From: Williamsia maris
GTDB taxonomy: Bacteria > Actinomycetota > Actinomycetes > Mycobacteriales > Mycobacteriaceae
DNA: 64,000 nt
NCBI RefSeq assembly: GCF_024171815.1
Contig: NZ_JAMTCJ010000001.1
Span: 558,001-622,000, forward strand
Direction of reading: 5' to 3'
Numbering within the stretch: the first letter of the stretch is position 1; the number at the start of each line of letters is the position of its first letter. Positions 579-52,509 of the stretch are shown here, piece after piece. A model generated the notes under the pieces. It saw only the letters and a list, made by a program, of their open reading frames with translations, was not told the DNA's origin and searched no databases. The position numbers were made by a program, and so were the translations under genes.

Positions 579-1475
579 GTGGAGATGCATCACCTGCGGT
601 ACTTCCTGGCCGTCGCCCGCGAACTGAACTTCACGCGTGCGGCGCGGTCGCTGAACATGTCGGTGCCACCGCTCAGCCAGCGCATCCGGACGCTCGAGCA
701 CGAACTCGGAACTCCCCTGTTCGAGCGGTCGACCCACCACACCAAGCTGACCCCCGCGGGCGAGGCACTGCTGCCGCTCGCGTGGTCGGTGGTGGCCGAC
801 TTCGACGCCATACCCACCCTCATCGGTCCGGACGTCGGGCGCGCCGACGTCCGTCTCGCCGTCCCCGACGTCCTCAACCCCCGACACCGTCGTGCGCTGA
901 CCGAGGCGATCCGCGGCCTCGACGCGTCGTTCTCGTTCACCATCCGACAGATGCCGTCGCTGCAGATGGAGTCGGCGCTGCTCAGCAGTTCCATCGACAT
1001 CGCCATCGCGCACGTGGGCACCACGAACGAGCGGTTGTCGACCCGGGTGCTCTACAGCGAGCCGCTCGGCGCCGTCGTCGACGTAACCCGGTTCCCCGAC
1101 CGGACGTCGCTGTCGATGGGCGACCTGCGCGGGCTGCGCTACATCCAGGGCCCGCGTCACTGGGATCTGGGCGCCGGACGCACCGATCGACTGGCCGCCG
1201 CGGGCGCGGTCGTCGATGCCGACGCGAGCTTCACCGACATCAGCGGGTTGCTCTTGTTCCTGCGCAGCACAGCGGCGTTCACGATCGTGCCGTTGGAGTC
1301 GGAGGCGGTGCTGTCGGTGGACCGCACGGAGTACGCGGTGCTGCCGGTCGACGACATGGACGAGTCGTTGACGACGTATCTGGTGCGCCGTGTCGCCGAC
1401 ACCTGGCTCGATCCGGTCGTCACCGTCCTCGGTCGTACCCACCAAGACCCCGACCCCCACCAGTTGGGCACGTAA
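579..1475 (+). CDS. LysR-family transcriptional regulator
   Basis: About 298 aa. The N-terminal winged helix-turn-helix is clear: HHLRYFLAVARELNFTRAAR, then SVPPLSQRIRTLEHELGTPLFER. An effector-binding periplasmic-binding-protein-like domain fills the rest. I chose the GTG at 579 because it gives the family's usual start just before 'MHHLRYF'; ATG 585 and GTG 540 are alternatives and none has a convincing ribosome-binding site. It is divergent from a CoA-transferase gene and probably controls it. The last codons, which read HQLGT and stop, lie inside the first unit of a repeat array, so the array has supplied the C-terminus. Confidence 0.88.
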   Translation: MEMHHLRYFLAVARELNFTRAARSLNMSVPPLSQRIRTLEHELGTPLFERSTHHTKLTPAGEALLPLAWSVVADFDAIPTLIGPDVGRADVRLAVPDVLNPRHRRALTEAIRGLDASFSFTIRQMPSLQMESALLSSSIDIAIAHVGTTNERLSTRVLYSEPLGAVVDVTRFPDRTSLSMGDLRGLRYIQGPRHWDLGAGRTDRLAAAGAVVDADASFTDISGLLLFLRSTAAFTIVPLESEAVLSVDRTEYAVLPVDDMDESLTTYLVRRVADTWLDPVVTVLGRTHQDPDPHQLGT

Positions 1476-1613
1476 ACACCCCCAGTTGGGCACGTAGACA
1501 CGCCAGTTGGGCACGTAAGTCCGTTGGTTGGGCAGTTGATGCCCAATCAGCGCACTTACGTGCCCAACTGATGGAAGTACGTGCCCAACTGACGGATGTA
1601 CGTGCCCAACTGG
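1460..1613. repeat. Dyad-symmetric 21-bp phased repeat array (array 1)
   Basis: CCAGTTGGGCACGTA occurs at 1460, 1482 and 1503, with a shorter TTGGGCA at 1528. After the dyad near 1537 come TGCCCAA at 1540 and TACGTGCCCAACTG at 1557, 1578 and 1599. The common core TTGGGCA/TGCCCAA steps by 22, 21 and 21 bp on the left and by 21, 21 and 21 bp on the right. The left copies mirror the right copies to within about one base. The array fills the gap between the convergent LysR and lipase genes and begins inside the LysR stop region. An RNA read through it could fold into a long hairpin. Confidence 0.95.
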
Positions 1614-1617
1614 GGTA

Positions 1618-2853
1618 TCAGCGCGAGCAGGTGGAGGGCGCGGGTTCGCCGGCGAAGCGGTCGCCGATCCAGGAGATCGCGCTCGGTGTCAGCCCGGTGT
1701 TGGTGTGGCCCTTGCCCTGCGCCACCGACACCGACAGCGTGTCGCCCATCGCGCAGGCCCGTCGGACGGCCGCGGCGGTCCACGCCGGGGTGATGATCTG
1801 GTCGGCGTCGCCGTACCCGACGAACAGGGGTCCGGCCGAACGCCGTTGCGGCAGTGAGTCGACGAGCAGCATGTCGTGGAGTCGTCGCAGCGCGCCGGCC
1901 GACGCGATGGTCGCGTCACCCGGCTGGACCTTGGTGATGGCGGAGAACTTGCGGAACGAGCTCCCCGGTCCGCAGGACGTCAGGTCGGATGCCCCGGCCG
2001 CCAGCGCCCCGCGCATGTAGTCGCTCACCGGGAAGTCCGGGTAGACCGCGCGCAGGCCGTCGACGATGAGCGGGATGAACGCCATCTGGATCTGCGTGAA
2101 CCGCGGTGCGACATAGGGTTGCGCGTCGGCACCGTCGGCGATGGGGGCGACATCGGCGGCCGGTGCGAGGGCCGCGGCACCGACGAAATCGAGCCCGGTT
2201 CCGTAATCCGCGGCGTGTTCGGCGGACGCCCAGGCGGCCTGGCCGCCCTGCGAGCTGCCGATCGCGGCCCAGCGGGTTCCCGCCTGCGGCACCATCTCTC
2301 GCGCAGCGCGCACCATGTCGATCATGTTGTAGGCGATGGTCCGCGAGTTCAGGTAGGGATGCGGGACGTCGGACTCACCGAGACCCTGATAGTCCGATGC
2401 GGCGACGACGTACCCGTCGGCGAGCAACGCTGCGACGGTGGACGTCTCACCCAGCAGATCGGCATATCCGGACGGGCCGCAGTTCGACGCGGTGCCGGTG
2501 GTCCCGTGACCGAACGCGACGATCGGCCAGCCACCCGACGGAGGGGTTCCCGAGGGCACCGCCACGTATCCCGACACCCGCGTTCCGAAGCTGCCGGTCG
2601 GATCGTCCGGCGCGTACCCGGCCGTCGAGCGGTACACGACGCGGGTGACGTTCTCGCCGGCCAGACGGCCGTCGGGATCGACCGTCAGCGGGGACCGTTC
2701 GAGGATCTCGCCGCGCTCATCGCCGACCGGGGCCGCCGGTGACGACGACGTCTGGGCAGAAGACGATGGGCCGGCGGACGACTCGGCGTCCGACGAGACC
2801 GGCGAACCGGTCGGCGCGGATGTCGAGCATCCGACCGCCAGGGTCGCGATCAT
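1618..2853 (-). CDS. Secreted lipase-family lipoprotein
   Basis: An alpha/beta hydrolase of the actinobacterial secretory-lipase type. It shows an oxyanion-type IVAFGHGTTG segment, the nucleophile elbow GSSQGG, a late Asp in GYGDADQIITP and a late His in GKGHTNTG. A Ser/Thr/Pro-rich linker follows a lipobox (LAVGC), so it is probably lipid-anchored outside the membrane. The only ATG/GTG/TTG start is at 2853, which gives a signal peptide of just eight residues with no positive charge. The in-frame upstream codons 2854-2901 would add a normal basic n-region and hydrophobic core but contain no usual start codon. The true start may be a non-standard ATC near 2901. Confidence 0.85.
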   Translation of the reverse strand: MIATLAVGCSTSAPTGSPVSSDAESSAGPSSSAQTSSSPAAPVGDERGEILERSPLTVDPDGRLAGENVTRVVYRSTAGYAPDDPTGSFGTRVSGYVAVPSGTPPSGGWPIVAFGHGTTGTASNCGPSGYADLLGETSTVAALLADGYVVAASDYQGLGESDVPHPYLNSRTIAYNMIDMVRAAREMVPQAGTRWAAIGSSQGGQAAWASAEHAADYGTGLDFVGAAALAPAADVAPIADGADAQPYVAPRFTQIQMAFIPLIVDGLRAVYPDFPVSDYMRGALAAGASDLTSCGPGSSFRKFSAITKVQPGDATIASAGALRRLHDMLLVDSLPQRRSAGPLFVGYGDADQIITPAWTAAAVRRACAMGDTLSVSVAQGKGHTNTGLTPSAISWIGDRFAGEPAPSTCSR

Positions 2854-2909
2854 CGCGACGATGATCGCCGACCCGAAGCGCGCCGACCGGTTGCCGATGA
2901 TGGCTGCGC

Positions 2910-3089
2910 CTACTTCGGCTGGTCGCCCAGCTTCTTGGCGGCGTCCTTGGCGGCGTCACGGCCCTTGTTCACCTGGCTGGTGTACTTGCCCTTGGTCGCC
3001 TTGTCGACGGCCTGGGCGCCCTTGTCGATGTACTGCGAGTTCTTGCTGATGGCGGTCTTGGCCTTGTTGGCGAGCTGCTTGAAATCCAT
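2910..3089 (-). CDS. MT0933/Rv0909-like small antitoxin-family protein
   Basis: A 59-aa lysine-rich helical protein starting MDFKQLANKAKTAISKN and containing DKATKGKYTSQVNKGRDAAK. This matches the pattern of the MT0933-like antitoxin family (M. tuberculosis Rv0909). I chose the ATG at 3089 because AGGGG precedes it at good spacing; a longer frame to 3152 lacks such support. No SRPBCC-type toxin partner of the Rv0910 kind is adjacent. The upstream gene is a metallo-beta-lactamase-fold hydrolase and the downstream gene a lipase, so its role as an antitoxin is unproven. Confidence 0.75.
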   Translation of the reverse strand: MDFKQLANKAKTAISKNSQYIDKGAQAVDKATKGKYTSQVNKGRDAAKDAAKKLGDQPK

Positions 3090-3180
3090 GTCGACCCCTG
3101 TTCGTTCGTGGTGGTGTTCGATTACGGGCCAGTCTAGCCGCGCGGGCGACATGTCCGATTCCCGCGAAGATCGAGCATTC

Positions 3181-4320
3181 TCAGCCGACGCTCTCCCACC
3201 ACGTCTGGTCGGCGATCCCGGCCCCCGTGCGGGCGACGACGTCGATCCGCGCTCCCGGCGCCGGCGTGGCGACCTCCGCGGATGCGGCGTCGGCGGCGGT
3301 GAGCATGCGGGTCACCGGCTCGTCCCACGGGTGCATCGCGAGGTTGAACGTCGCCCAGTGGATCGGCACCATCAGCGACTCCGACAACGACGACCCGGCG
3401 AGATACCGGTGCAGCTCCACACCCTCCTCGGGGTTGACGTGGATGTCGGGCCACAACTCGCCGTACGCCCCGATGGGGACCAGAGTCAGCTCGTAGGGAC
3501 CGGTGGTCCGGGCGGAGTCGGCGTAGGCCTCGGTGAACCCGGTGTCGCCGGTGAAGAACGCGTTGTGGGTCGGCCCGTGGATGCCCCAGCTGGCCCACAG
3601 GGTGAGGTTGCGGACGACGCCTCGACCCGAGAAGTGCCGCGCCGGAAGGCAATCGAAGGTCAGATCGCCGTGCGTGACCTGGCCACCCCAGTCGCTCTCG
3701 GAGATCCGGTCGGCCGCGATCCCCCAGTACTCGAGGTGCGCACCGACACCGATCGGGGTGATGAAGTGCGCGTCGGGCTGACGTCGCGCGATCTCGACGA
3801 CCGTCGTCATGTCGAGGTGGTCGTAGTGGTCGTGACTGAGCAGCACGACGTCGATGGCGGGCAGGTCGGCGGCGGTGCACGGCGCGCGGTGCAGGCGTGC
3901 CGGCCCGACCACCTGCGACGGCGAACACCGCTTGGAGAACACCGGATCGGTGAGCACCCGCCTGCCGTCGATCTCGATGAGCGAACTGGCGTGGCCCAGC
4001 CAGGTCACCGCGAGCGCGCCGACGGTGGTCTCGAAGTGCGGGGTTCGTACCGGCACGATGCCCCCGGGCTGGCCCCGACGGCGTTCACGCAGCATGTCGC
4101 GGGTGTTGCCTGCACTCGGCGTGATCGGCGACGCCGGCTCGCGGTTGGCGAAGAACCCGTCGGTCTGGTTCGGCGAGGACGCGATGTGCGGTGCGATCGC
4201 CTCCGGCGAGGCCCCGAACGCCCGGCCCGCCGGTACCCCTGTCGCGGCCAGACCCGAGGTGAAGGCTCCGACGGTGCTGGTGGCTGCACTCGCAGCGAGT
4301 TTGCGGATCACTCTCGTCAC
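3181..4320 (-). CDS. Metallo-beta-lactamase-fold hydrolase, NAPE-PLD/UlaG-like
   Basis: 379 aa with a GTG start. The metal-binding HxHxDH is seen as LLSHDHYDHLD at about residue 165. Further ligands appear in LPARHFSGRG, the FTGDTGF motif and a late PIHWATFNLA. This order fits the branch that includes N-acyl-phosphatidylethanolamine phospholipase D-like proteins such as M. tuberculosis Rv0906. The first 40 residues are Ala/Ser/Thr-rich and could be a signal or membrane anchor. It is divergent from the thiolase gene and followed by the MT0933-like small gene, a pairing reminiscent of the Rv0906-Rv0909 neighbourhood. The substrate is probably a phospholipid or cyclic phosphate, which is inference. 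Confidence 0.85.
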   Translation of the reverse strand: MTRVIRKLAASAATSTVGAFTSGLAATGVPAGRAFGASPEAIAPHIASSPNQTDGFFANREPASPITPSAGNTRDMLRERRRGQPGGIVPVRTPHFETTVGALAVTWLGHASSLIEIDGRRVLTDPVFSKRCSPSQVVGPARLHRAPCTAADLPAIDVVLLSHDHYDHLDMTTVVEIARRQPDAHFITPIGVGAHLEYWGIAADRISESDWGGQVTHGDLTFDCLPARHFSGRGVVRNLTLWASWGIHGPTHNAFFTGDTGFTEAYADSARTTGPYELTLVPIGAYGELWPDIHVNPEEGVELHRYLAGSSLSESLMVPIHWATFNLAMHPWDEPVTRMLTAADAASAEVATPAPGARIDVVARTGAGIADQTWWESVG

Positions 4321-4395
4321 AGTACCGACGTCGGGTCGCCGACCCGACCACGTTTCCGGTCCGCCCGGCGGGAATCAGCGGGCCGCGACCACGGT

Positions 4396-4417
4396 TGACT
4401 ATGTGTAGCAATAGTCA
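4396..4417. promoter_or_regulatory. Perfect palindrome upstream of the thiolase gene
   Basis: TGACTAT, eight bases, then ATAGTCA forms a perfect inverted repeat with 7-bp arms ending 16 bp before the thiolase ATG. Size and position suit a TetR-family operator. No TetR gene lies in the window next to it, so the binding protein is unknown. Confidence 0.5.
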
Positions 4418-4433
4418 GATACCGGAGGTTCTC

Positions 4434-5618
4434 ATGAGACGCTCATCGATCACCGACGCCGTCATCGTCGGCGCCGTCCGCACCCCCATCGGCAAGGGCA
4501 AGGCGAACGGAGCGCTGCACGGCGTGCATCCGGTCGACATGCTCGCGCACAGCCTGCGCACCCTCGTCGAACGCACCGGCATCGATCCGGCCCTCATCGA
4601 CGACGTCATCACCGGCACCGTCACGCAGGCCGACGAACAGGGCCAGAACATCGCACGCAACGCCGTACTCGCCGCCGGATTCCCCGAATCCGTCCCCGCG
4701 ACGACAGTCAACCGGCAGTGCGGATCGAGTCAGCAGGCCATCTCGTTCGCCGCCCAGGGAGTGATGTCCGGGGCCTACGACGTGGTCGTGGCCGCAGGCG
4801 TGGAGTCGATGGGCCGCGTGCCGATGATGTCCGACGTCCGCCCCGGCGCCGACCCGTTCGGCGTCGACCTCGCGGCGCGCTATCCGGACGGGTTCATCCC
4901 GCAGGGGTACAGCGCCGAACTGATCGCCGCTCGCTGGGGTCTGAGCCGGACCCGGCTCGACGAGTTCGCGCTGTCCAGCCACGAGAAGGCGGTGGCCGCC
5001 ACCAAGGACGGTCGGTTCGCGACCGAACTGGCACCGCTCGCCGGTCTCGACCACGACGAGATGATCCGCCCCGGTGGATCCCTCGAGTCCCTGGCCGCCC
5101 TGCGATCGGCGTTCTACGACGAGACCATGGCGCAGCGCTTCCCGGAGATCGGCTGGGACATCACGGCGGCGAACTCGAGTCCGCTCTCCGACGGCAGCGC
5201 CGCGGTGCTGATCACCTCGTCGGAGACCGCGCGGCGACTCGGTCTGACCCCGCTGGCGCGGATCCACACGACCACCGTGGTCGGATCCGACCCGATCCTG
5301 ATGCTCACCGGGGTCATCCCGGCCACCGAGAAGGTGCTGGCGAAGGCCGGGCTGACGATCGCCGACATCGACCTGTTCGAGGTGAACGAGGCGTTCAGCC
5401 CGGTCGTGCTGGCCTGGGCGCACGACACCGGCGCCGACCTGGCCCGCACGAACGTCAACGGCGGGGCCATCGCGCTCGGGCACCCGCTCGGCGCCAGCGG
5501 CGCGAGAATCATGACGACGCTCGTCAACGCGCTGCACCAGACCGGTGGACGGTACGGGCTGCAGACGATGTGCGAGGCGGGCGGTCAGGCCAACGCCACG
5601 ATCATCGAACGGATCTAG
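4434..5618 (+). CDS. Acetyl-CoA acetyltransferase (thiolase)
   Basis: 394 aa. It catalyses thiolytic cleavage or Claisen condensation of acyl-CoAs in fatty-acid or side-chain degradation. The nucleophilic Cys is about residue 96 in NRQCGSSQQAI. The catalytic His lies in ALGHPLGASGAR. The second Cys sits in TMCEAGGQANATI, where the usual CxGGG is CEAGG. The ATG at 4434 follows CGGAGG at ideal spacing; an in-frame TTG at 4395 lies within the palindrome and is unlikely. Its TAG shares the four bases CTAG with the stop of the convergent reductase gene. Confidence 0.93.
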   Translation: MRRSSITDAVIVGAVRTPIGKGKANGALHGVHPVDMLAHSLRTLVERTGIDPALIDDVITGTVTQADEQGQNIARNAVLAAGFPESVPATTVNRQCGSSQQAISFAAQGVMSGAYDVVVAAGVESMGRVPMMSDVRPGADPFGVDLAARYPDGFIPQGYSAELIAARWGLSRTRLDEFALSSHEKAVAATKDGRFATELAPLAGLDHDEMIRPGGSLESLAALRSAFYDETMAQRFPEIGWDITAANSSPLSDGSAAVLITSSETARRLGLTPLARIHTTTVVGSDPILMLTGVIPATEKVLAKAGLTIADIDLFEVNEAFSPVVLAWAHDTGADLARTNVNGGAIALGHPLGASGARIMTTLVNALHQTGGRYGLQTMCEAGGQANATIIERI

Positions 5619-6268
5619 CCCGCGAGGGCCTGCGCGATGGGGGTGTCGCCGTCGGTGAACTCGATCATCTGAGAGATGGTCGCGGGCGTGGCGAGGGACG
5701 CGACGATGACGGCGGCGACATTCGCACGGCTGGTCGTGGTCTCACGGTCGGCGCCCTGCGCCTTGGTGACGATCGACCCGGAACCGGCCTCGTCGGAGAG
5801 CGAGCTGGGGCCCACGATGGTCCAGTCGAGGTCGCTGGCACGCAGGTACTGGTCGGCCTCACCCTTGGCCTCGGCGTACGCGTAGAACGAATCATCGGTC
5901 GACACACCGTGATCCACCGAGGCGCCGTAGTACGACACCAGGACGAACCGCTTGATCGAGTTGGCCGACGCGGCGTCGATGCACCGGATGGCGGCGTCGC
6001 GGTCGACGGCGAAGGTGCGATCGGCGTCCCCGCCACCGGCGCCGGCGGCGAAGATGACGGCGTCGTGGCCGGCGAGGGTCTCGATGATCTCCTCGGTCGA
6101 CTGGTGCTCGACGTCGGCGATCACGGGAACGGCGCCCGTGCCGGTGATGTCGTCGGACTGATCGGGATTGCGGATCAGCGAACTCACCTGGTGTCCGTCG
6201 TCGACCAGCAGGCGCGCGGCCTGCAGTGCGATCTTCCCGTGGCCTCCGACGATGGCGATGCTTGACAT
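5615..6268 (-). CDS. NAD(P)-binding NmrA-like oxidoreductase (atypical SDR)
   Basis: 217 aa. The nucleotide-binding glycine motif is SSIAIVGGHGKIALQAARLL at the N-terminus. Later come VIFAAGAGGG, a FVLVSYYGAS strand, YAEAKGEAD and a LDWTIVGPSSLSD segment, as in NmrA/SDR-a5-like proteins. These are often sensors or reductases lacking a full catalytic tetrad. The ATG at 6268 has GAGGAG six bases upstream; GTG 6274 is an alternative. Its stop overlaps the thiolase stop tail to tail, leaving no room for a terminator between the two transcripts. Confidence 0.87.
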   Translation of the reverse strand: MSSIAIVGGHGKIALQAARLLVDDGHQVSSLIRNPDQSDDITGTGAVPVIADVEHQSTEEIIETLAGHDAVIFAAGAGGGDADRTFAVDRDAAIRCIDAASANSIKRFVLVSYYGASVDHGVSTDDSFYAYAEAKGEADQYLRASDLDWTIVGPSSLSDEAGSGSIVTKAQGADRETTTSRANVAAVIVASLATPATISQMIEFTDGDTPIAQALAG

Positions 6269-16955: not shown

Positions 16956-17122
16956 GTTTGCCTGCCCCCGGCATCGTGCAAACGGCACTCGACCATGCAA
17001 ACTTCCTCCGGACGGGTCGATTCGCATGGTGCCGCGGATTCGCACCCTTCGATGCTGTTCGCACCGCGCACGCAGGGTGCGAACGACGCGAGACGATGCG
17101 AACAGCAGCCCGGGGTGCGAAC
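16956..17122. repeat. Phased 19-bp repeat array with a dyad (array 2), in the long gap before lysX
   Basis: The 327-bp stretch 16853-17179 holds no credible gene of normal size. It contains GTTTGC (16956), TGCAAAC at 16977 and 16996, ATTCGCA at 17020 and 17038, GTTCGCA at 17057, and TGCGAAC at 17078, 17097 and 17116. The last six form a 3+3 mirror about 17071 with steps of 18-19 bp. The two TGCAAAC copies are also 19 bp apart. The array follows the lysX stop on the minus strand and precedes the lipid operon. Confidence 0.9.
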
Positions 17123-17179
17123 GAGCGCCGTCCCCGACTCCCCCGTCCAGGCGTCTTTTGCTTGTCAGCGTCAGCCGAC

Positions 17180-20100
17180 CTACTGCTGCGGCCGCACGAA
17201 CGGGAACGTGAGGGTGGGCCGGATCGCGACACCGGAGAGCATCATGACCAGCCGGTCGACGCCGAGTCCGAGTCCGCCGGTCGGTGGCATGGCGTATCCG
17301 AGGGCGTGCAGGAAGTCCTCGTCCAACGACATCGCCTCTGGGTCACCACCGGCGGCCTGCATCGACTGCCGGGTGAGCCGGTCGCGTTGGTCGACCGGAT
17401 CGGTCAGCTCGGAGTACGCGGTGCCCAGTTCGGCGCCGAACCCGACCAGGTCCCACTGCTCGGTGAGGCGCGGGTCGGATCGGTGTTTGCGCGCCAGGGG
17501 TGACACCTCGATCGGGAAGTCGTAGTAGAACGTCGGGAACCGGGTCTGCTTCTCGACGAGGGCCTCGTAGAGCTCCATGACCATCTTGCCCGCGGACATC
17601 TCGGCGGTGGTGTCGATGCCGTGGCGCGCGCAGATCTCGGCGACGTCGGCGGCCGTGGACGACGAGCTGACCGCCGACCCGCACGCCCGCGACACCGCCT
17701 CGTGCACGGTGATGATCGGCCAGGTGCCGTCGAGTTGCACCGTCTCGATCTCGCCGGACTCCCCCGGCTGCAGCGCGATGGCCTCACCGTTGACCGCGAC
17801 GGCCATCGCCAGGATCAGCTCCCGCGTCAGTTCCCGCATCGAGTTGTAGTCGCCGTAGGCCTGATACGCCTCCAGCGAGGTGAACTCGGGGTTGTGGGTG
17901 GCGTCGGCGCCCTCGTTGCGGAAGTTGCGGTTCAGCTCGAAGATCGCGCCCATCCCGCTGACGCACAGCCGCTTGAGATACAGCTCCGGCGCGATCCGGA
18001 GATAGAGCTGCTGATCGTAGGCGTTGATGTGGGTCTTGAAGGGTCGCGCCGACGCGCCGCCGTGCACGGTCTGCAGCATCGGCGTCTCGACCTCGAGGAA
18101 CTGATGCGCGTGGAGGGTGTCGCGGAGTGCGCGGACCCCGCGGGAACGCTTCTGCAGCAGGTCGACCGCCGATCGACTGGTGATGAGATCCAACGGCCGG
18201 TCCCGGACGCGGACGTCGTCGCTCAGTTCTGCGGTCAGTTGCGGCAGCGGGTTCAGGCACTTGCCCGCCATCTCCCAGCTCGCAACCGACACCGACAGCT
18301 CACCGCTGCGCGACCCGACCACCTCGCCGGTGACGCTGATGAGGTCACCGACATCGACGATCTGACGGAACCGTTCGTGCTCGCCGGGCCGCGCGGAGTC
18401 GGCATCGGAGAGGACCTGGATCCGCGCGCCGTCGTCCTCGACGAGGGCGAAGACCACGCCACCGAGGTCGCGCACCGCCCGCACCCGACCCGCGATCGAC
18501 ACCGTCGTCGACGTCCGGGCCTCCGCCGCGAGACCCTCGTGGGCGGCGACGACGTCGGCCACGCGATCCGTGCGCGGCACCGCGACCGGGTACGGCTCGT
18601 GCCCGGCGGCCCGGATGCCGTCGAGCTTGGTGCGCCGTGTGCGTTGCTGGTCGTTGAGCCGCGGCGGCGGGACCCGAGTGACCAGGAGGTCGCGCTCGAG
18701 TGCGTTGACGGCGTCGACGAAGCCGGTGTCGGTGCGCCGCGGCTGGGTGTCCGGGGTCTTGGAACCGACCAGGAACTTCGGGCCCATGTGCGGCAGGAAT
18801 CCCTCCGCGACACCGACCGCGACCGCGGCCCGCATGACGGTGAGCGAGGGGTGGTAGCAGAGCATCCGGGGCAACCACTCCGGGTGGTACTTCTGGTTCG
18901 ACTTGTACAGCGTCTCCAGCTGGTAGAACTTCGACGCGAACCCGAGAACGGAGTCCACCGTGCGGGTCACCGGACCCGCGCCCTCACGTTCGGCGTCGGA
19001 GAACACCGACCGGAACACCGCAAAGTTCAGCGAGATCCGCCGGATGCCGATGTCGCCCGCGGACTCGATGAGACGGGCGACGAGGTACTCGTTGACGCCG
19101 TTCTCCGCGGCGCGGTCGCGACGCATCAGGTCCAGCGACACCCCGCGCAGGCCCCACGGGACGAACGACAGGAAGGCACGGATCTCCCCGGACTGGTCGT
19201 GTGCGGTGATGATCAGGCACCGACCGTCGGCCGGATCGCCGACGCGGTTGAGCGCCATGGAGAACCCCCGTTCGGTGTCCTCCCCACGCCACTTGTCGGC
19301 GAGGTGCTCGATGTTCGCCAGCTCGTCCGGGCTCAGTTCGCCGTGCCGCTTGATGGTCGTCGTGTAGCCGGCCGCGGTGACGCGGTTGACGGCCTGACGC
19401 ACCGGCTTCATCGACGCTCCGCGCAGGCTGAAGTCGTCGACGTCGATGATGGCCTCGTCGCCGATCGCGAGGACCTTGAGTCCGGCCGCCCGGTAGACCT
19501 TCGCGCCGGCCTCGCTCGCCGCGAGCACCGCCGCGTGCAGGCTGTGGGTGCGGCAGTTGGCGAGCCATGCCTGCACCGCGGGCAGCCACGACTCGGGCGC
19601 ACCGATGGGGTCGGCGCTGGCCACGCTCACACTGCCGACGGCCCGGAAGGTCACCGCGGCCCTGCCGTCCGGCGAGAAGACCACCGACTTGTCGCGGCGG
19701 GTGGCGAAGTAGCCGAGCGAGTCGTCCTCGCCGTTGCACAGCAGCAGTTCGCGGACGCGCAACTCCTGCTCGGCGTCGGCGAACTCGTTGTCGCGGTTGG
19801 CCCGGTAGAGCACCATCAGCGCGAGGATGAGCGCCAGCGCCGACATCCATCCGGCCAGTACGTAGATCGGGTGGTGGCCCTGGTGTCCCTGCAGCAGCGC
19901 GTCGCTCATCCCGGCGCGGTCACCGAAGGTCGACCGCAGCGCCCACTGCGCCTTCTCGTCCCAGCCCTGCAGCGTGTGGGGGAAGGCGACGGTCAGCACG
20001 AACGTGATGACGAACGACGTCGCCAGACCGCCGACGAGGACGCCGAGCGCGGCGCGGACCGAGCGATGGGCCAGCTCCGCGGTGAACGCCCGACGTGAGT

Positions 20101-20587
20101 AGACGAACGCGACGAGGACGACGATGCCGATCGCGAGCACCACCGACGCGGTCACCGGCGACGTGGCGAAGGCGTCGTAGTCGTTGTCGGTGTCGATGTT
20201 CTCGATGAAGGTGCTGAGCAGGACGAAGACGTCGTCGATGACGGCGAGCACCATCACCGCCAGCAACGCGGTGTGCGCGGCCTTGAAGCGGCGGCGCACG
20301 GCACCGGCCAACGCCAGCACGAGCAGGATCACGAAGATGCTGGGGTCGGCGGGCACGTTGAACGCGCCGACGAGGTCGGTCAGGGCGTCGACGAACCGGA
20401 AATGGCGGAACGGGATCGCGATCAGCGACACCACCGCGGCGATGGTCAGCAGGCGACCGGACCAGAGGGCGATCCGCTCGGCCGCGACCTGTCCGCGTTG
20501 CCCGTTCACGATCCTTCGCGACGGCGGGCGGGCATCGTCAGTCGAGTTGGCACGCTTGGGTTTTGCAACCACCGGGGCAGCGGACAT
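17180..20587 (-). CDS. lysX: Bifunctional lysylphosphatidylglycerol synthase / lysyl-tRNA synthetase LysX
   Basis: 1135 aa, close to the 1172 aa of the M. tuberculosis protein. Membrane helices occupy about residues 40-230. A DUF2156/MprF lysyl-transferase domain spans about 260-570 (GYFATRRDKSVVFSPDG, AFLSFVPWGLRG). The OB-fold (SIAGRVRAVRDLGGVVFALV) and class II LysRS catalytic core follow, with RSRGVRALRDTL, ETPMLQTVHGGASARPF, RIAPELYLKRL and the C-terminal GLGLGVDRLVMML. The protein charges tRNA with lysine and transfers it to phosphatidylglycerol, lowering membrane charge against cationic peptides. The ATG at 20587 gives the family's short N-terminus; the longer frame to 20674 is unlikely. 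Divergent from the KimA-like gene. Confidence 0.95.
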   Translation of the reverse strand: MSAAPVVAKPKRANSTDDARPPSRRIVNGQRGQVAAERIALWSGRLLTIAAVVSLIAIPFRHFRFVDALTDLVGAFNVPADPSIFVILLVLALAGAVRRRFKAAHTALLAVMVLAVIDDVFVLLSTFIENIDTDNDYDAFATSPVTASVVLAIGIVVLVAFVYSRRAFTAELAHRSVRAALGVLVGGLATSFVITFVLTVAFPHTLQGWDEKAQWALRSTFGDRAGMSDALLQGHQGHHPIYVLAGWMSALALILALMVLYRANRDNEFADAEQELRVRELLLCNGEDDSLGYFATRRDKSVVFSPDGRAAVTFRAVGSVSVASADPIGAPESWLPAVQAWLANCRTHSLHAAVLAASEAGAKVYRAAGLKVLAIGDEAIIDVDDFSLRGASMKPVRQAVNRVTAAGYTTTIKRHGELSPDELANIEHLADKWRGEDTERGFSMALNRVGDPADGRCLIITAHDQSGEIRAFLSFVPWGLRGVSLDLMRRDRAAENGVNEYLVARLIESAGDIGIRRISLNFAVFRSVFSDAEREGAGPVTRTVDSVLGFASKFYQLETLYKSNQKYHPEWLPRMLCYHPSLTVMRAAVAVGVAEGFLPHMGPKFLVGSKTPDTQPRRTDTGFVDAVNALERDLLVTRVPPPRLNDQQRTRRTKLDGIRAAGHEPYPVAVPRTDRVADVVAAHEGLAAEARTSTTVSIAGRVRAVRDLGGVVFALVEDDGARIQVLSDADSARPGEHERFRQIVDVGDLISVTGEVVGSRSGELSVSVASWEMAGKCLNPLPQLTAELSDDVRVRDRPLDLITSRSAVDLLQKRSRGVRALRDTLHAHQFLEVETPMLQTVHGGASARPFKTHINAYDQQLYLRIAPELYLKRLCVSGMGAIFELNRNFRNEGADATHNPEFTSLEAYQAYGDYNSMRELTRELILAMAVAVNGEAIALQPGESGEIETVQLDGTWPIITVHEAVSRACGSAVSSSSTAADVAEICARHGIDTTAEMSAGKMVMELYEALVEKQTRFPTFYYDFPIEVSPLARKHRSDPRLTEQWDLVGFGAELGTAYSELTDPVDQRDRLTRQSMQAAGGDPEAMSLDEDFLHALGYAMPPTGGLGLGVDRLVMMLSGVAIRPTLTFPFVRPQQ

Positions 20588-23291: not shown

Positions 23292-23310
23292 TCCGACCGA
23301 CCGGCCCCTC

Positions 23311-23535
23311 CGCCGAGCGTGCCCAAACAACGCGCCCAGCGTGCCCAAACAACCCGCCGAGCGTGCCGCAACGACCCGCCGACCGTGCCGATCGGCTCGC
23401 GCCCCATACGAGGAACTGTCGAGCGCCGCGCCTGGTGCGAACCGGCCCAGCGTGACGGCACATTGGAAGCGCGATTTCGGCACGTTCGACGGGTTGGTTC
23501 GGCACGTTCGGTGCGCGGTTTCGGCACGCTCGGCG
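23311..23535. repeat. Dyad-symmetric 22-bp phased repeat array (array 3)
   Basis: In the gap between the convergent permease and ndh genes, (G/C)CGTGCC occurs at 23317, 23339, 23361 and 23383, exactly 22 bp apart. The reverse word GGCACR occurs at 23457, 23479, 23501 and 23523, again exactly 22 bp apart. The axis is at 23423 for every mirrored pair. The outermost units match best: CCGCCGAGCGTGCC at the left is the reverse complement of GGCACGCTCGGCGG at the right. Inner units keep mainly the CGTGCC core. Confidence 0.95.
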
Positions 23536-23537
23536 GA

Positions 23538-33872: not shown

Positions 33873-34283
33873 ATGTCCTGGATCCGCAACGCCGCCCGTG
33901 GGGTCCTGGGCGGGTTCCTCATCTTCGCCGGAACGGCCCACCTGACCTTCGCCCGCGACACCTTTCACGCGCAGGTCCCCGACTGGGTCCCGCTGAACGT
34001 CGACTTCGTCGTCATCGCATCCGGGGTCGTCGAGATCGTCCTCGGCGTCAGCCTGCTCCTGCTCTACCGGCATCAGGTGGCGATGGGGTGGATCGTCGCC
34101 GCGTTCTTCGTGGCCGTGTTCCCGGGCAACATCTCGCAGTACGTCACCCACACCGACGCGTTCGGTCTCGACACCGACACCGGCCGACTCATCCGGCTGT
34201 TCTTCCAGCCCGTACTGATCGCGTGGGCTCTCTGGTGCACCGGAGCCTTCTCAGCCCTTCGGAGCAAAACCACCACACGCTGA
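33873..34283 (+). CDS. DoxX-like small membrane protein
   Basis: 136 aa with four predicted helices. GVLGGFLIFAGTAHLTFAR at the N-terminus and GNISQYVTHTDAFGLDTDTG in the third loop fit the DoxX-like family of small membrane proteins. It has no operon partner. Its stop codon falls in the first unit of repeat array 4. Function unknown; some relatives work with thiol/redox enzymes. Confidence 0.75.
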   Translation: MSWIRNAARGVLGGFLIFAGTAHLTFARDTFHAQVPDWVPLNVDFVVIASGVVEIVLGVSLLLLYRHQVAMGWIVAAFFVAVFPGNISQYVTHTDAFGLDTDTGRLIRLFFQPVLIAWALWCTGAFSALRSKTTTR

Positions 34284-34405
34284 CTGTATGGAAAGCGCAA
34301 CCCCACTGCTGACTGTGTGGAAAGCGCCATCGAGTGTGCTGACAGCGTCACGCGAGTTCGCAGCGAAACAACGCACACTCGATGCGCGCTTTCCGCACCG
34401 TCAGC
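34279..34405. repeat. Repeat array 4 with long inverted arms
   Basis: GCTGACTGTATGGAAAGCGC (34279) is repeated at 34308 with one change, and a decayed copy starts at 34338. The reverse word GCGCTTTCCGCACCGTCAGC is at 34386. Inside it, ATCGAGTGTG (34329) faces CACACTCGAT (34374). Arms 34308-34338 and 34374-34405 form a nearly perfect stem of about 31 bp around an axis at 34356. The step is 29-30 bp. It lies between the convergent DoxX-like and dienelactone-hydrolase genes and includes the DoxX stop. Confidence 0.93.
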
Positions 34406-44265: not shown

Positions 44266-45456
44266 ATGACCACGGTATTGATCTCGGGAGCGAGCATCGC
44301 CGGACCGGCGCTGGCCTACTGGCTCAACCGACAGGGCGTCACCACGACCATCGTCGAACGCGCCCCGGAACTGCGCACCGGCGGACAGGCCATCGACCTG
44401 CGCGGAGCCGGCCGAGAGGTGGCGCGACGCATGGGCATCGAGGATGCCGTACGTGCGGCCGGGACGGGCGAGAAGGGCATCGAGTTCGTCGATGCGTCGG
44501 GAACGGTCAAGGGCGCGTTCGCCGCCGACGATTTCGAGGACGGCAACGGCCCGACCGCCGAACTCGAGATCCTGCGCGGCGATCTGGCCCGCATCCTGGT
44601 CGACACCGTCGCCGACGACACCGAGTTCCTCTTCGGGGACAGCATCGCCGAGCTCGACGACGACGGCGATCAGGTGCACGTCGTCTTCGCGAGCGGGACA
44701 CAGCGGTCGTTCGACTACGTCGTGGTCTCCGAGGGAATGCGGTCGCGCACCAGACGACTCGTGTTCGACGACGCCGACGCGATCCGCCCGCTCGGGATGT
44801 ACACGTCGTACTTCACGATCCCGCGTACCGACACCGACACCGACTGGGCCGCATGGAGTTCGCTCCCCGGGAGCCGGTCGCTGTTCCTGCGGCCCGACAG
44901 TCACGGGACCAGGCGGGCGGCGTTCTCGTTCATGACCGACGAGCAGGGCTTCGACGACCTCGACGTCCCGGGACAGAAGAAACTGCTGCGCGAGCGGTTC
45001 TCCGACGCCGACTGGGCGTTCCCGCGTGTGCTCGACGGCATGGACGACTCCGACGACTTCTACTTCGAGGGCCTCGGCCAGGTGAAGCTGCCGACGTGGT
45101 CGAAGGGGCGTGTCGTGCTGGTCGGTGACTCCGCCTACTGCGCCTCCCCCATCAGCGGCATGGGTACGAGTCTGTCGTTGGTGGGCGCGTACGTGCTGGC
45201 CGGCGAGTTGACCGGTGGCGACGGCAGATTCGAGCGATACGAGGCCACGATGCGGCCGTACGTGGACGAGGCGCAGAAGCTCCCGCCGGGCGCCCCGCGG
45301 GTGGCGAACCCGAAAACCCGGCTGGGCGTTGCGTTGTTCCACGTCGTGATCGGCATCGCGTCGAGCGGTGTGGTGCGCAAACTGGCCTCGCGGTTCACGT
45401 CCCCACCCGCCGACAAGTTCACCCTCCCCGACCACCCGTACAACGTGCCCGCCTGA
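44266..45456 (+). CDS. FAD-dependent monooxygenase (PHBH fold, TetX-like)
   Basis: 396 aa. The FAD-binding N-terminus is VLISGASIAGPALAYWL with the acidic strand end TTIVERAPEL. The second FAD motif is VVLVGDSAYCASPISGMGTS followed by LSLVGAYVLAGEL. It belongs to the class A flavoprotein hydroxylases acting on aromatics, polyketides or antibiotics. The ATG at 44266 has AGGA upstream; an in-frame ATG at 44212 lies near the operator and is not used if the proposed promoter is right. MarR control suggests induction by the substrate. Confidence 0.92.
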   Translation: MTTVLISGASIAGPALAYWLNRQGVTTTIVERAPELRTGGQAIDLRGAGREVARRMGIEDAVRAAGTGEKGIEFVDASGTVKGAFAADDFEDGNGPTAELEILRGDLARILVDTVADDTEFLFGDSIAELDDDGDQVHVVFASGTQRSFDYVVVSEGMRSRTRRLVFDDADAIRPLGMYTSYFTIPRTDTDTDWAAWSSLPGSRSLFLRPDSHGTRRAAFSFMTDEQGFDDLDVPGQKKLLRERFSDADWAFPRVLDGMDDSDDFYFEGLGQVKLPTWSKGRVVLVGDSAYCASPISGMGTSLSLVGAYVLAGELTGGDGRFERYEATMRPYVDEAQKLPPGAPRVANPKTRLGVALFHVVIGIASSGVVRKLASRFTSPPADKFTLPDHPYNVPA

Positions 45457-45463: not shown

Positions 45464-45574
45464 GTTGGGCACCTAAGCCCGCCAGTTGGGCACTCGCACC
45501 CCGTGTTGGGCCCTAGTTTGCGCGCGTTGGGCCCTAGTTTGCGCGCGTTGGGCCGTCGTTGCCCCGCGTTGGGC
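45464..45574. repeat. Phased 21-bp repeat array (array 5), partly coding
   Basis: GTTGGGC occurs at 45464, 45485, 45505, 45526, 45547 and 45568, stepping by 21, 20, 21, 21 and 21 bp. It is the same core as in array 1, where TTGGGCA has a 21-bp step. All copies point the same way here, with no mirrored arm. It begins 7 bp after the monooxygenase stop and runs into the permease gene. The last units encode its C-terminal tail, two copies of a seven-residue GNDGPTR-like motif. Confidence 0.93.
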
Positions 45575-46901
45575 CGTCATTCGCCGCTGCCGGCGTCGCA
45601 TCGACCGGCGTCGCGACATCCGGCACGACGGTCCCGCGGATGCCTCCGACGATTTTCATCACGTGATAGATCACCAAGGCGGCAACCGCACCCAGCGCGA
45701 TGCCGGCGAAGCTCAAATCGCCGATCTTCCAGGTGAAATCGGCGATGCCGATGACCAATGGGATGGCGGCCGTGAACTGGTTGATGGGCTTGGAGAAGTC
45801 GACGCGGTTGGTGACCCAGATGTTGACGCCGAGGATTCCGACGAGGCCGTAGAGCGCCGTGGTGACGCCGCCGAGGACGCCGGGCGGGATGGATGCGATG
45901 ACGGCGCCGACCTTGGGCGACAACCCGAGCAAGACCGCCGCGACACCGGCCACCCAGTAGGCGGCCGTCGAGTAGATCTTCGTCGCCGCCATGACGCCGA
46001 TGTTCTCGGCGTAGGTGGTTGTCGCCGAACCGCCACCGCTGCCGGCGAGGATGGTCGCGAGACCGTCGGCGCCCAGCGCACGGCCGATCTGCTTGTCGTA
46101 GTTGATGCCGGTCATCGTGTTGATGGACTTCACGTGGCCGATGTTCTCGACCACCAGCACCAACACGACCGGGATGAACAGCGGCAGAACCGAGAAATGC
46201 AGTGTGGGCGTCTGGAAGTCGGGGAAGCCGACCCAGCTGGCGGCGCCGATGGCGTCGGTCTCCACCTTGCCCCGAGCCAACGCCAGCAGATATCCGAGGA
46301 TGACGCAGACGAAGATCGCGAGGCGCCCGAGCAGTCCCTTGAACAGGATCAGCACTGCAATGAGGAGCACGAGCACGACGGTCGCGGTGATCGCGTCCTT
46401 CTCGTAGTTGGTCTTGGCGGTCGGGGCGAGGTTGAGCCCGATGACCGCGACGATGGTGCCGGTGATGATCGGCGGCATCAGCGCCTCGATCCACCGGATG
46501 CCCGCGAAGTGCACCACCGCGCCGATGATCACCAGCAGGATGCCGACCATCACCAGACCGCCGAGCGCCGAGCCCTGTCCGTCCGACGCCGTCGCCGCAG
46601 TGACCGGGGCGATGATCGCGAAACTCGACCCGAGGTAGCTGGGCAGTCGGTTGCGGGTGATCAGCAGGAACAGGATCGTGCCGATGCCGGAGAACAACAG
46701 CGTCGTCGCGGGCGGGAAGCCCGTCAGCACCGGCACCAGGAACGTGGCGCCGAACATGGCCACGACATGCTGCAGACCGATACTCACCGTGCGCGGCCAC
46801 GTCAGTCGTTCGTGCGGGGCAACGACATCTCCGCTGTCGACCTGCTTCCAACTGAACAACGACGTCTTCGTGTCTGGCTGTGACACGTCTGGCTTGGACA
46901 T
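45534..46901 (-). CDS. NCS2 uracil/xanthine permease
   Basis: 455 aa from MSKPDVSQ; a longer start at 46928 is possible. SIGLQHVVAMFGATFLVPVL is the family's helix 1, FIPVVLVLVVENIGHVKSIN with the conserved Glu is helix 8, and GSGGGSATTTYAENIGVMAA is helix 10. This is a UraA-like proton-coupled nucleobase importer. The last 14 residues (GNDGPTRGNDGPTRAN) are encoded by repeat array 5 and are not part of the family fold. Confidence 0.93.
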   Translation of the reverse strand: MSKPDVSQPDTKTSLFSWKQVDSGDVVAPHERLTWPRTVSIGLQHVVAMFGATFLVPVLTGFPPATTLLFSGIGTILFLLITRNRLPSYLGSSFAIIAPVTAATASDGQGSALGGLVMVGILLVIIGAVVHFAGIRWIEALMPPIITGTIVAVIGLNLAPTAKTNYEKDAITATVVLVLLIAVLILFKGLLGRLAIFVCVILGYLLALARGKVETDAIGAASWVGFPDFQTPTLHFSVLPLFIPVVLVLVVENIGHVKSINTMTGINYDKQIGRALGADGLATILAGSGGGSATTTYAENIGVMAATKIYSTAAYWVAGVAAVLLGLSPKVGAVIASIPPGVLGGVTTALYGLVGILGVNIWVTNRVDFSKPINQFTAAIPLVIGIADFTWKIGDLSFAGIALGAVAALVIYHVMKIVGGIRGTVVPDVATPVDATPAAANDGPTRGNDGPTRAN

Positions 46902-47356: not shown

Positions 47357-48744
47357 TGCTGCCGAACCGAGCGCGGCTACAGGGGTGGAATCCAGGTGGC
47401 CTCGCGGCCACATCCGCACCGATCACCGCCGGCGGCGCCGCGGTCGAGTCGGCGGTGGCCACGATCGCTGCCAATTGCCGCAACCTCCCGGCATTGCACG
47501 GATGGAGCGGTGAGTCGCATGACGCCGCGACCGCGGCTTTCGACCGTTCCAAACGCCCCGCCGCCACGATCGCAGACGCGGCTGAGGCAATTGCCCAGAC
47601 ACTCGTCGTCGGGTCACACGCGGTGGGCACGGCTCGAACTCAACTGCTGGACAAAGCCACCGCGATCGAGGCGGGCCGTCTGCTGGTCACCGACGGCTGG
47701 GTCGTCCTGCTGAAGCCGCTGGCAATGACGCGCGCCGAAGCGGTCGAACTCCAGGCGCTGCAGGCGAGCGAGCAGGCTGAGATCAACCAACTCCTCATCG
47801 CCGTGGACGACGCCGACAACGCAACCGCGCGCGACCTCTCCGCCGCGGCGCAGCGTTTCGGGTTCACGCCGCCCGGCAGCGCCGACTGGTTCGACGCCTT
47901 GGTCACAGCGGGCTCGACGCGCCCCAATGACGACGTCGCCGATCCTCGTCTACCGATGACGATGTTCGCCCAGGAGCAGGCACAAGCCGCCGACGCCGCG
48001 ACCACCGTTGCCGCGAGGACCGACGACAAAGAAGCCGACGGAACCAAACACACCGTCATCACCATGCAGGACGGGAGCAGACGTGAGATCCGCGAGTGGA
48101 AAGACCACGTGCCCGAGAAGGGCCAGATGCCACTCTTCTTCAGTGGTCGTTCCCGCACCACCGGATCGTCTGAGACCACCTATGACCCCGAGGGAAACCG
48201 GGTGCTGACGATCGGCTCGAGTACGAGCAGAGAGGGCACCAGCCGCACGATCAAGAAAGCAGACAGAAGCGGCGTCGTTGCCTTCATCGGCGCGCAGGGC
48301 CAAAAGTCCGGCTGGACCTTCGGGACAGACGGGAACTACACCGAGGACCTCCCCACCGACGCGCCCTTCTTCACGCATCCGGAACTGACGGTGACCGGCG
48401 GCGGTATCTCGACGCTCCAGAATTTCGCCGAATCGCCGAAGGGAGCACTTGCGCTCGGAGAAGCGACCGCGTCGAAAGTTGCTGTCGGAGCCAAGTACGG
48501 CGGTCCAGCGCTTGGAATCGCGACCACTGTCTACGACATGGCTGTTGCCGACGGGCAGTACGAATCGTGTCGGGCGCTCTACGCAGGTGTGGCCGGCACA
48601 ATCGGCGGTGTCGCAGGCGGCGCTGCCGGCGGCGTCATCGGCGGGCCGGGCGCTCCGCTCACTGCAGGAGGCGGAGCCATCCTGGGCACCTGGGTGTTCG
48701 GCAAACTGGGCGACGAGCTCGGACAGATGGTGTGCGCGAAGTGA
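47356..48744 (+). CDS. Putative T7SS effector with glycine-zipper C-terminus (locus A)
   Basis: 462 aa. The N-terminal 150 residues are helical with a WSG turn at 50-52, as in T7SS substrates. The middle (about 215-370) is beta-rich and hydrophilic. The last 70 residues carry a Cys-flanked hydrophobic, glycine-zipper segment (AGVAGTIGGVAGGAAGGVIG, then GGGAILGTWVFGKLGDEL), suited to membrane insertion. No enzyme motif is visible. A membrane protein gene follows 34 bp later; this arrangement is repeated in loci B and C. I read it as a candidate pore-forming effector. A structural role is the alternative. Confidence 0.6.
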   Translation: MLPNRARLQGWNPGGLAATSAPITAGGAAVESAVATIAANCRNLPALHGWSGESHDAATAAFDRSKRPAATIADAAEAIAQTLVVGSHAVGTARTQLLDKATAIEAGRLLVTDGWVVLLKPLAMTRAEAVELQALQASEQAEINQLLIAVDDADNATARDLSAAAQRFGFTPPGSADWFDALVTAGSTRPNDDVADPRLPMTMFAQEQAQAADAATTVAARTDDKEADGTKHTVITMQDGSRREIREWKDHVPEKGQMPLFFSGRSRTTGSSETTYDPEGNRVLTIGSSTSREGTSRTIKKADRSGVVAFIGAQGQKSGWTFGTDGNYTEDLPTDAPFFTHPELTVTGGGISTLQNFAESPKGALALGEATASKVAVGAKYGGPALGIATTVYDMAVADGQYESCRALYAGVAGTIGGVAGGAAGGVIGGPGAPLTAGGGAILGTWVFGKLGDELGQMVCAK

Positions 48745-48778
48745 GCGTTCAGCGAATCGACAAACTCGAGCAAAACAG

Positions 48779-49582
48779 TTGAGCAGCATCGAATTTCCGA
48801 TACCGAACCGTTGGTCATCGCGGCCCAGGTGGCTGCGGTGGCTCGTCACGGTGTTCTTGCTTGTGGTCACCGTCTGGCTGATTCTGCTCGCCGGCCTGAG
48901 CTCTTCAGGCAATTGGCTCGACACGACGTTCTACCTCGTCACTGCGGTCGCCTGCATTGCCACCATCGGCATCATGGCCCAGCCGGTACAGATGTATCGA
49001 CGACGGGAACTCGACGATCCCGACATCGCCATCCGTGACGGCGGCCTGTGGATCGAGCAGCGCGGACGGGACCTCGTGGTGCAGCTCATCCTGATTGCTT
49101 CCAGCGCGAGCGCAGGGCTGATCTTCGCGATCGGTCAGTGGACGGGCACCCTCGGTGTGCCGGTATCGCGCGGCTTCGCCATCGCCGCACCGCTGCTCGC
49201 TGTCCTTGTCGCGGTCTACGGATCGATCCAGCTGGTCCTGTTGCTCGCTCGAGAGTTCGCGATGAGCACTGTGGTGTTGTCTCCAGATCGAGTACGCGTC
49301 ATCTACGGGATCAGCGACCGGACGCTGCCCTGGGCAGAGATCTCGCATCTGTCGATCAACACACCCGCGATCGGTCGCCGACATGCCATCGACTGTCTCG
49401 TCCATCTCCGAGTCTCCGAGGGCCGGAGTCTCGACATCAACACGAATTGGCTGTCCACCGGGTGCGCTCCCACCTACTGGCTGTTGAAGTTCTACTTCGA
49501 GCATCCCGAGCACCGTGACGAGCTGGGCGACCAGCGTGCTGTCGATCGTCTGATGAGCGGTCGAGTGGTCACCAGACGGTGA
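48779..49582 (+). CDS. Polytopic membrane protein, candidate immunity protein (locus A)
   Basis: 267 aa from a TTG start that overlaps the TGA of a 13-codon frame running from the effector stop, suggesting translational coupling; a later start is possible. Helices at about 18-42, 48-65, 97-122 and 125-150 form two hairpins. A C-terminal PH-like beta domain follows (STVVLSPDRVRVIYGISDRT). The plan matches the locus B membrane protein. Likely cytoplasmic-membrane immunity to the upstream effector (inferred). Confidence 0.6.
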   Translation: MSSIEFPIPNRWSSRPRWLRWLVTVFLLVVTVWLILLAGLSSSGNWLDTTFYLVTAVACIATIGIMAQPVQMYRRRELDDPDIAIRDGGLWIEQRGRDLVVQLILIASSASAGLIFAIGQWTGTLGVPVSRGFAIAAPLLAVLVAVYGSIQLVLLLAREFAMSTVVLSPDRVRVIYGISDRTLPWAEISHLSINTPAIGRRHAIDCLVHLRVSEGRSLDINTNWLSTGCAPTYWLLKFYFEHPEHRDELGDQRAVDRLMSGRVVTRR

Positions 49583-49607
49583 ACAACCTGCGAACTTCCG
49601 CCAACTC

Positions 49608-49637
49608 TTGACTCATTCCAGAAAAGTGCGGGATAGT
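49608..49637 (+). promoter_or_regulatory. furA promoter, apparently leaderless
   Basis: TTGACT (49608-49613) and GATAGT (49632-49637) are 18 bp apart, and the furA GTG begins 7 bases after the -10. The transcript would start at or next to the start codon. Mycobacterial furA is leaderless in the same way. The spacer (CATTCCAGAAAAGTGCGG) has the AT-rich patch where FurA could bind its own promoter. Confidence 0.7.
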
Positions 49638-49643
49638 GCATGC

Positions 49644-52365
<2,722 letters not shown>

Positions 52366-52381
52366 TCAGCACCTGATCACC

Positions 52382-52418
52382 AGAACACCCCGTCGACCAT
52401 CGGTCGGCGGGGTGTTCT
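52382..52418 (+). terminator. Strong stem-loop after katG
   Basis: AGAACACCCCG (52382-52392) pairs with CGGGGTGTTCT (52408-52418), and CGACC/GGTCG extends the pairing inside. It begins 16 bases after the katG stop. There is no U-tract, which is common for high-GC actinobacterial terminators. Confidence 0.8.
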
Positions 52419-52443
52419 GCTGTGGTGGTGTTTCACTCCGGCA

Positions 52444-52509
52444 ATCCGCTCCGGTTGTGTTGATCCGCTCCGGTTGCAACCGGAGCGGATCGCCGAAAGT
52501 GGAGCGGAT
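52444..52509. repeat. Dyad-symmetric 19-bp phased repeat array (array 6)
   Basis: ATCCGCTCCGGTTG at 52444 and 52463 is mirrored by CAACCGGAGCGGAT at 52477 and GGAGCGGAT at 52501. The step is 19 bp on each side. The inner pair joins into a perfect 30-bp palindrome (52462-52491, half-site GATCCGCTCCGGTTG) with its axis exactly at 52476/52477. It lies between the katG terminator and the convergent lipoprotein gene. Confidence 0.95.

Follow-up and report, generated by a model that had tools for sequence, protein, structure and literature searches.

Phased word arrays behind stop codons in a Williamsia genome: a candidate class of polar protein sites at gene ends

Six arrays between the genes of the window

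We consider here a stretch of 64,000 nucleotides of the Williamsia maris genome (the window; positions 558001-622000 of contig C1, in an assembly of 4.93 Mb and 5 contigs), in which short words repeated at a near-constant step lie between genes. One family of these arrays, family A, reads away from the gene behind which it lies, and we propose that it may consist of phased rows of protein sites. The genome (G000) is compared with its relatives G001 to G007, with which it forms a genus set of 8 genomes, and with one genome of another genus (G131). Genes were called with our own dicodon script, which gives 809 genes in C1:1-860000, 60 of them in the window; the script missed a + gene at 832068-833585, and its weak + call at 682797 is doubtful. 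The same 860 kb, a 17% sample of the genome, supplies the statistics on the gaps between genes.

An earlier note, made from the letters of the window, had described six repeat stretches, five of them mirrored about an axis. All six are located again and the mirroring is borne out, array 5 being the unmirrored one. The copies follow one another in 21-bp steps in array 1 (with one step of 22) and array 5, in 22-bp steps in array 3 and in 19-bp steps in arrays 2 and 6, with three clear copies in the sense half of array 2 and two copies per half in array 6. Array 4 is a pair of direct copies 29 bp apart plus an inverted pair with 33-bp arms. The words are named A (arrays 1 and 5), A2 (array 5), B (array 3), C (array 4), D (array 2) and E (array 6), and their positions, numbered from the first letter of the window, are as follows.

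1460..1536, + strand: left half of array 1, with three clear family A words and a degenerate one; the stop TAA of the + gene (which ends at 1475) falls within the first unit
1540..1613, - strand: right half of array 1, made of family A words that follow the - gene, whose stop is at 1618
17037..17067, + strand: array 2, mirrored half, family D words, with looser copies leftward to about 16956
17076..17123, - strand: sense half of array 2, with the family D word three times in 19-bp steps, in a tandem gap behind the - gene 17180-20509
23310..23389, + strand: array 3, left half, family B words in 22-bp steps
23469..23535, - strand: array 3, right half, family B words in 22-bp steps
34272..34327, + strand: part of array 4 in which the family C word occurs twice in direct orientation, at a distance of 29 bp
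34308..34405, no strand: inverted repeat of family C in array 4, its arms 33 bp long, resembling many places in the genome
45462..45495, + strand: family A part of array 5, a pair of words that closely follow the + gene (stop at 45456)
45505..45575, + strand: array 5, four family A2 words (GTTGGGCC) in 21-bp steps, reaching into the 3' end of the - gene
52443..52476, + strand: left half of array 6, where the family E word stands twice with a 19-bp step
52477..52510, - strand: right half of array 6, again with the family E word twice

Arrays had been said to fill all five convergent gaps longer than about 70 bp. By our gene calls they fill five out of six such gaps in the window, the sixth (61880-62208) holding an ordinary hairpin (61895-61933) instead of an array, and array 2 sits in a tandem gap, not a convergent one. 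At the gathering score Rfam 15 gives no match within the window, and a consensus scan of its first 20 kb finds one U-tract terminator against 4.4 expected by shuffling.

Polarity, conservation and helical register of family A

Word A is CAGTTGGGCAC with a 21-bp step, and the genome holds 49 adjacent pairs of it versus 0 for a reversed control pattern. For its orientation we take every locus listed for the exact A pair, 21 in G000 and 17 in G003, which yields 63 sub-arrays (47 convergent, 13 tandem, 2 divergent and 1 undetermined in context). Fifty-nine of the 63 are sense to the upstream gene, i.e., they read away from it, and 55 of these lie outside called genes. The first A word stands a median of 8 nucleotides behind the stop codon, at most 15 nucleotides in 44/55 and exactly 7 in 13/55, and in five cases the stop TAA itself belongs to the first A unit. 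The sense orientation is kept by all ten sub-arrays that lie in tandem gaps outside called genes, and by 37 of 42 in Williamsia herbipolensis and a Williamsia metagenome-assembled genome (MAG). The earlier suggestion of a class of 3'-end element is supported for family A, on its sense polarity, its closeness to the stop and its convergent bias, and the sense rule is established for this family only. Among the B runs of G000 four are sense and five are not; three of the five are the far half of mirrored tandem-gap arrays, and two rest on gene-call errors.

The two halves lie 436-1023 bp apart in nine cases, with genes between them in the cases read. By reading, these genes are DUF559-like, DUF308-like and flavin-reductase-like in A brackets and methyltransferase-like in a B bracket of G001, and, as the enclosed genes differ, gene cassettes sharing one enclosed gene are disfavoured. 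DUF559-type genes number seven in G000. Single DUF559/AbiEi-like genes stand between halves or at array junctions at loci L051, L053 and L056, at G000 C1:83916-84794 and at G003_200k 48516-49460, named by reading, with the one at C1:1103040, inside an A bracket, alone confirmed by profile. At G003 C2:452646-452785 seven A words lie within a called frame of 6.4 kb, possibly two genes fused by an array that has no in-frame stop.

Does the word itself change between species? Orthologous A arrays were aligned in 12 cases (seven of G000 with G003, three with G005 and two with G002), and in these the nine-base A core differs at 23/414 positions and the spacer at 111/321. Two alignments, probably with shifted units, give most of the core differences (7/27 and 9/45). 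Seven core positions were used as seeds; at the four non-seed core positions 10/185 differ, and at the four-fold sites of four G000/G003 gene pairs 245/1305. The one-sided array L060/L061 has zero changes between species at its 36 core positions. A blast of the flanks finds a matching A locus in G003 for 13 of 20 A loci of G000, that at C1:416386 being matched on one side only. We read these figures as selection that probably acts on the word in fixed A arrays.

The spacing is equally regular, with 169 of the 171 steps of at most 70 bp between successive A words being multiples of 21. The two halves of mirrored arrays also keep step with each other: over 31 distinct centres, the spacing between the final + word and the - word that opens the other half falls near multiples of 10.5 bp (R=0.84), and the best period in a scan of 7-16 is 10.6. 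When the set is restricted to centres less than 80% similar (n=21), 18 are within 1.5 bp of a 10.5-bp multiple (0.33 expected), and the observed R is reached by 0 of 200,000 jittered sets. Without the frequent 41-43 class the register persists (n=15, R=0.73, p=0.00016). Odd multiples of 10.5 are present among the centres (53, 53, 73, 74), which argues that the register is more than the copying of 21-bp units. The A pairs that bracket genes, for which no register is expected, give n=9, R=0.45 and p=0.16. D has two mirror centres, and there is no mirror centre among the F arrays examined.

Such a register across the axis points to double-stranded DNA as what is bound. Phased protein sites, one of the possibilities raised in the earlier note, thus gain strong support for family A from the core conservation, the 21-bp steps and the register, all of them properties of the sequence. 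The claim that the steps lie near two helical turns is right for A (21) and roughly so for B (22) and F (21-22), and fails for C (28-29) and for D and E (19).

Dispersed families, folding and turnover between species

Contrary to what the note had supposed, the words are not specific to their loci but belong to dispersed families, as the genome-wide A pairs and a blast among the gaps of the 860 kb indicate. By this blast (gaps of at least 70 bp, a family being counted if it has at least three) the family that holds arrays 1 and 5 spans 9 gaps, that of arrays 2 and 3 has 8, that of array 4 has 6 and that of array 6 has 4. The families occupy 15/35 convergent, 14/180 tandem and 4/106 divergent gaps (p=5e-8), or 13/35, 11/180 and 3/106 without the three-gap families (p=2e-7). 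Arrays show a convergent bias in G000 but do not mark every long convergent junction. Tandem Repeats Finder gives 8/35 convergent, 8/180 tandem and 5/106 divergent gaps in the same 860 kb. Some of the "divergent" cases are gene-call errors (the missed + gene at 833 kb and the weak + call at 682 kb). In 200-kb samples of the relatives, the same program gives 4/12 convergent, 1/48 tandem and 0/17 divergent gaps in G003, 2/11, 2/38 and 0/33 in G001, and 4/14, 2/48 and 1/21 in G006. Two of the three-gap families look like the ends of one repeated element; at G000 C1:302729-304269, 534213-535685 and 812708-814273 three-copy families occur in pairs separated by roughly 1.3 kb and may be the two ends of one repeated insertion element.

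Pairs of word A occur in four of the 8 genus genomes (G000, G002, G003 and G005), and G001, G004, G006 and G007 have none. A scan of genome contigs for word A returns 30 stretches, 29 from W. herbipolensis ARP1 or the Williamsia MAG and one from Nostoc, the genome of the window possibly not being among the contigs. The B-pair pattern matches 7/8 genus genomes and 3/293 other genomes of the family; the exact F pattern matches 1/301 genomes and is too strict to inform. G131 carries at C11:536208-536350 a one-sided B-like array of seven units, in 21/22-bp steps, right behind a stop codon. The hypothesis of a single motif underlying every word is not upheld, as only A-A2, B-F, F-C, C-H and E-H among 28 word pairs reach p<0.05, uncorrected. 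Family C elements are also grouped into compound blocks, in which several inverted repeats follow each other at intervals of about 250 bp (G000 C1:521788-522434 and 481126-481434). Array 1 against phage and plasmid records, and arrays 3 and 4 against plasmid records only, give zero matches, and a phage or plasmid origin is disfavoured within those tests.

Folding was compared against dinucleotide shuffles. All seven mirrored arrays tested (four from arrays 1, 3, 4 and 6 of the window, one from array 2 and two from elsewhere) fold below the shuffles, with z from -4.7 to -16.7, as the mirrored geometry dictates. Ten hand-picked one-sided arrays on the sense strand behave differently, eight having z between -0.5 and +2.8, with exceptions at -2.6 (A) and -4.3 (F). 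At C1:416361-416504 six A words fill a convergent gap of 144 bp, and the z scores of its two strands are +2.6 and +2.1. The stem of a single unit is 3 bp for A, B and E and 5 bp for F and D. A strong fold in the first 60 nucleotides is found at 25/56 convergent ends without arrays versus 1/24 with arrays (p=0.0002), at 5/46 A ends, and at about 15 of 90 sampled tandem ends versus 0/8 with arrays. Arrays and local hairpins thus look like alternatives to each other, although array 6 does adjoin one (52383-52417).

The junctions themselves turn over between species. Family A is present at the array 1 junction in G003; in G005, where the flanks are 89-92% identical, another 21-bp word, also mirrored, takes its place. 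The array 3 junction carries mirrored B in G003, a one-sided B-like array in G001, G004 and G007 and a 17-bp word in G006, and there is no gap in G002. At the array 4 junction the gap in G003 is 5 bp and the family C element is absent. Locus L182 is a 14-bp gap in G003, a D-type array in G006 and 757 bp of other sequence in G002, and at L189 an A array is present in G000 only, exactly between two stop codons that are 7-59 bp apart in seven relatives. These comparisons indicate that arrays as a whole are acquired or swapped at the sites between stop codons. The earlier argument against a single mobile repeat holds in that there are several words; each word is nevertheless a dispersed family, gained or exchanged at the same junctions. 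Families also combine: L184 and L189 join A with F-like units, and a nested element at G000 C1:833567-834088 has B words outside, D words inside and a further inverted pair between. In W. herbipolensis one spacer is common to many A loci. In G003, at C2:481789-482948 (the ortholog of G000 C1:462527-462747), the place of the A array is taken by an inserted gene, with a different palindromic repeat on either side of it built on CCCGCGAC...GTCGCGGG.

Explanations and significance

The polarity, the closeness to the stop, the conservation of the word, the two-turn steps and the register of family A seem best explained by a row of DNA-bound proteins of fixed polarity. Our leading account, tentative and somewhat short of an even chance, is that A arrays are phased polar rows of predicted protein sites on double-stranded DNA, probably ending or insulating transcription. 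One molecule of a presumably single kind of protein would bind each A word of about 11 bp, its neighbours would follow two helical turns apart on one face of the DNA, and the mirrored half would present the same face. Because the array begins near the stop and points away from the gene, an RNA polymerase exiting the gene would meet all sites in a single orientation. The row would then be a polar barrier that ends transcription or separates converging polymerases in place of a local hairpin, a role suggested by the rarity of local hairpins at A ends. An extension to B and F is tentative; C, D and E are outside the proposal and may be ordinary inverted repeats.

Several observations count against this account. 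Four of the 63 sub-arrays break the sense rule, two of them lying within called genes and the other two in a gap called as divergent. So do five of the 42 in W. herbipolensis and the MAG, where the distance to the stop is also looser (median 16.5, at most 15 nucleotides in 18/36). Among the 21 dissimilar centres those at 60, 129 and 202 miss the register, and the register of B is weak (n=9, R=0.54, p=0.07). In G006 three of six F runs are divergent or antisense in a tandem gap (C2:129589-129733, 155502-155601, 245269-245370), and in a 200-kb sample of G131 the arrays that Tandem Repeats Finder detects have no convergent bias (1/12 convergent, 4/39 tandem, 1/26 divergent gaps). The word swap at the array 1 junction would require several proteins or one of broad taste.

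The main rival is that the arrays are selfish, dispersed, non-autonomous repeats whose words are transposase or recombinase sites with no host function, lying between stops because they do least harm there. This is a serious possibility, though on the whole an unlikely one. The several dispersed families, the gain at L189, the whole-array word change at the array 1 junction in G005, the nesting at 833 kb with the mixing at L184 and L189, and the shared spacer of W. herbipolensis all suit it. Against it, 13/20 A loci are matched in G003 with cores held while spacers drift, and the enclosed genes differ, those read being unlike transposases. The Y1 (RAYT-type, IS200/IS605-type) transposase domain PF01797 has no match in G000, whereas five of 14 control genomes are positive, and a REP family driven by such a transposase is disfavoured. 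A selfish origin is likely for the spread of the arrays and is compatible with later host use. An improbable, though not negligible, rival holds that BIME-like protein rows anchor, bridge or absorb supercoils where transcription units collide, with no direct ending of transcripts. The convergent bias and the helical register suit a structural protein equally, and REP elements are reported to lie mainly between convergent or unidirectional genes (PMC3733652); strict sense polarity, kept in tandem gaps too (10/10), and closeness to the stop are unexpected for a topology sink.

Two further explanations involve base pairing or the transcript. Bidirectional hairpin terminators or cruciforms formed by the mirrored halves, which the earlier note had also proposed, agree with the strong folding of mirrored arrays; as a general explanation they are weakened because one-sided arrays exist, eight of the ten tested folding no more than shuffles, as in the 144-bp gap, and one (L060/L061) having an unchanged core. 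Pairing moreover predicts no 10.5-bp register, and we hold this explanation to be quite unlikely. Least likely is a signal at the level of RNA, for example a site where Rho is loaded or where the 3' end of the transcript is bound by a protein. The sense polarity of arrays downstream of stops would fit, as would four one-sided B arrays whose sense strand is rich in C (0.39-0.46, with G at 0.24-0.31) and which fold no more than shuffles. The A, A2, C and F arrays, however, are not clearly C-rich, and the C and G content of ends with arrays is close to that of other ends, so Rho sites are disfavoured as a general answer; RNA binding also leaves the register across the mirror axis unexplained.

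How do the arrays compare with known systems? Like REP/BIME elements they are dispersed, intergenic, mirrored mosaics with several families per genome, found mainly in convergent or unidirectional gaps. The A unit differs in that it is not a palindrome of 20-40 bp but an exact 21-bp repeat with one sense per half; family C, with its inverted arms, is closer. CGTC-type REPs have no dedicated transposase according to PMC3733652. An intrinsic hairpin terminator differs by its stable local hairpin, scarce at array ends, although mirrored arrays can fold over a long range. MIRU units, which are longer than 21 bp, insert at stop codons in gene sense. The arrays resemble them in being actinobacterial, tandem and mostly intergenic, and differ in being mostly convergent, mirrored and built of 21-bp units; PMC3635867 describes MIRU as tandem, mostly intergenic repeats of mycobacteria, presumed to sit within operons.

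A spacing of about 21-22 bp between direct repeats is also found in plasmid iterons, AraC/XylS sites and Tn7-type ends, mirrored in the case of transposon ends; the arrays differ from these by their place at gene 3' ends, their many copies and their differing enclosed genes. The RNA polymerase I (Pol I) terminator boxes (bound by TTF-I or Reb1) and Tus-Ter are orientation-dependent protein barriers, and the Sal boxes are repeated. The A sites likewise stand in one orientation to transcription, but the proteins of those systems are known, as is Rap1p, and the protein here is a predicted one. We know of no bacterial genome-wide set of polar roadblock sites, and in the open literature searched no paper was recognised as describing such arrays. 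In yeast, Rap1p is an orientation-dependent roadblock according to PMC10310618.

A broader proposal, possible rather than probable, is that the genus ends or insulates many of its transcription units with helix-phased polar protein rows on 21-bp words behind stops, a bacterial counterpart of the repeated Pol I terminator boxes, with the word and perhaps the protein turning over between lineages. The ending of transcripts in high-GC actinobacteria and the separation of converging genes are not settled questions, and the arrays provide a class of oriented, phased, sequence-defined sites just behind stop codons. Since close species carry one-sided, mirrored, swapped and empty natural alleles, the question is directly testable, and the arrays make it possible to ask, in a clean setting, at what point repeats dispersed between genes turn into host signals.

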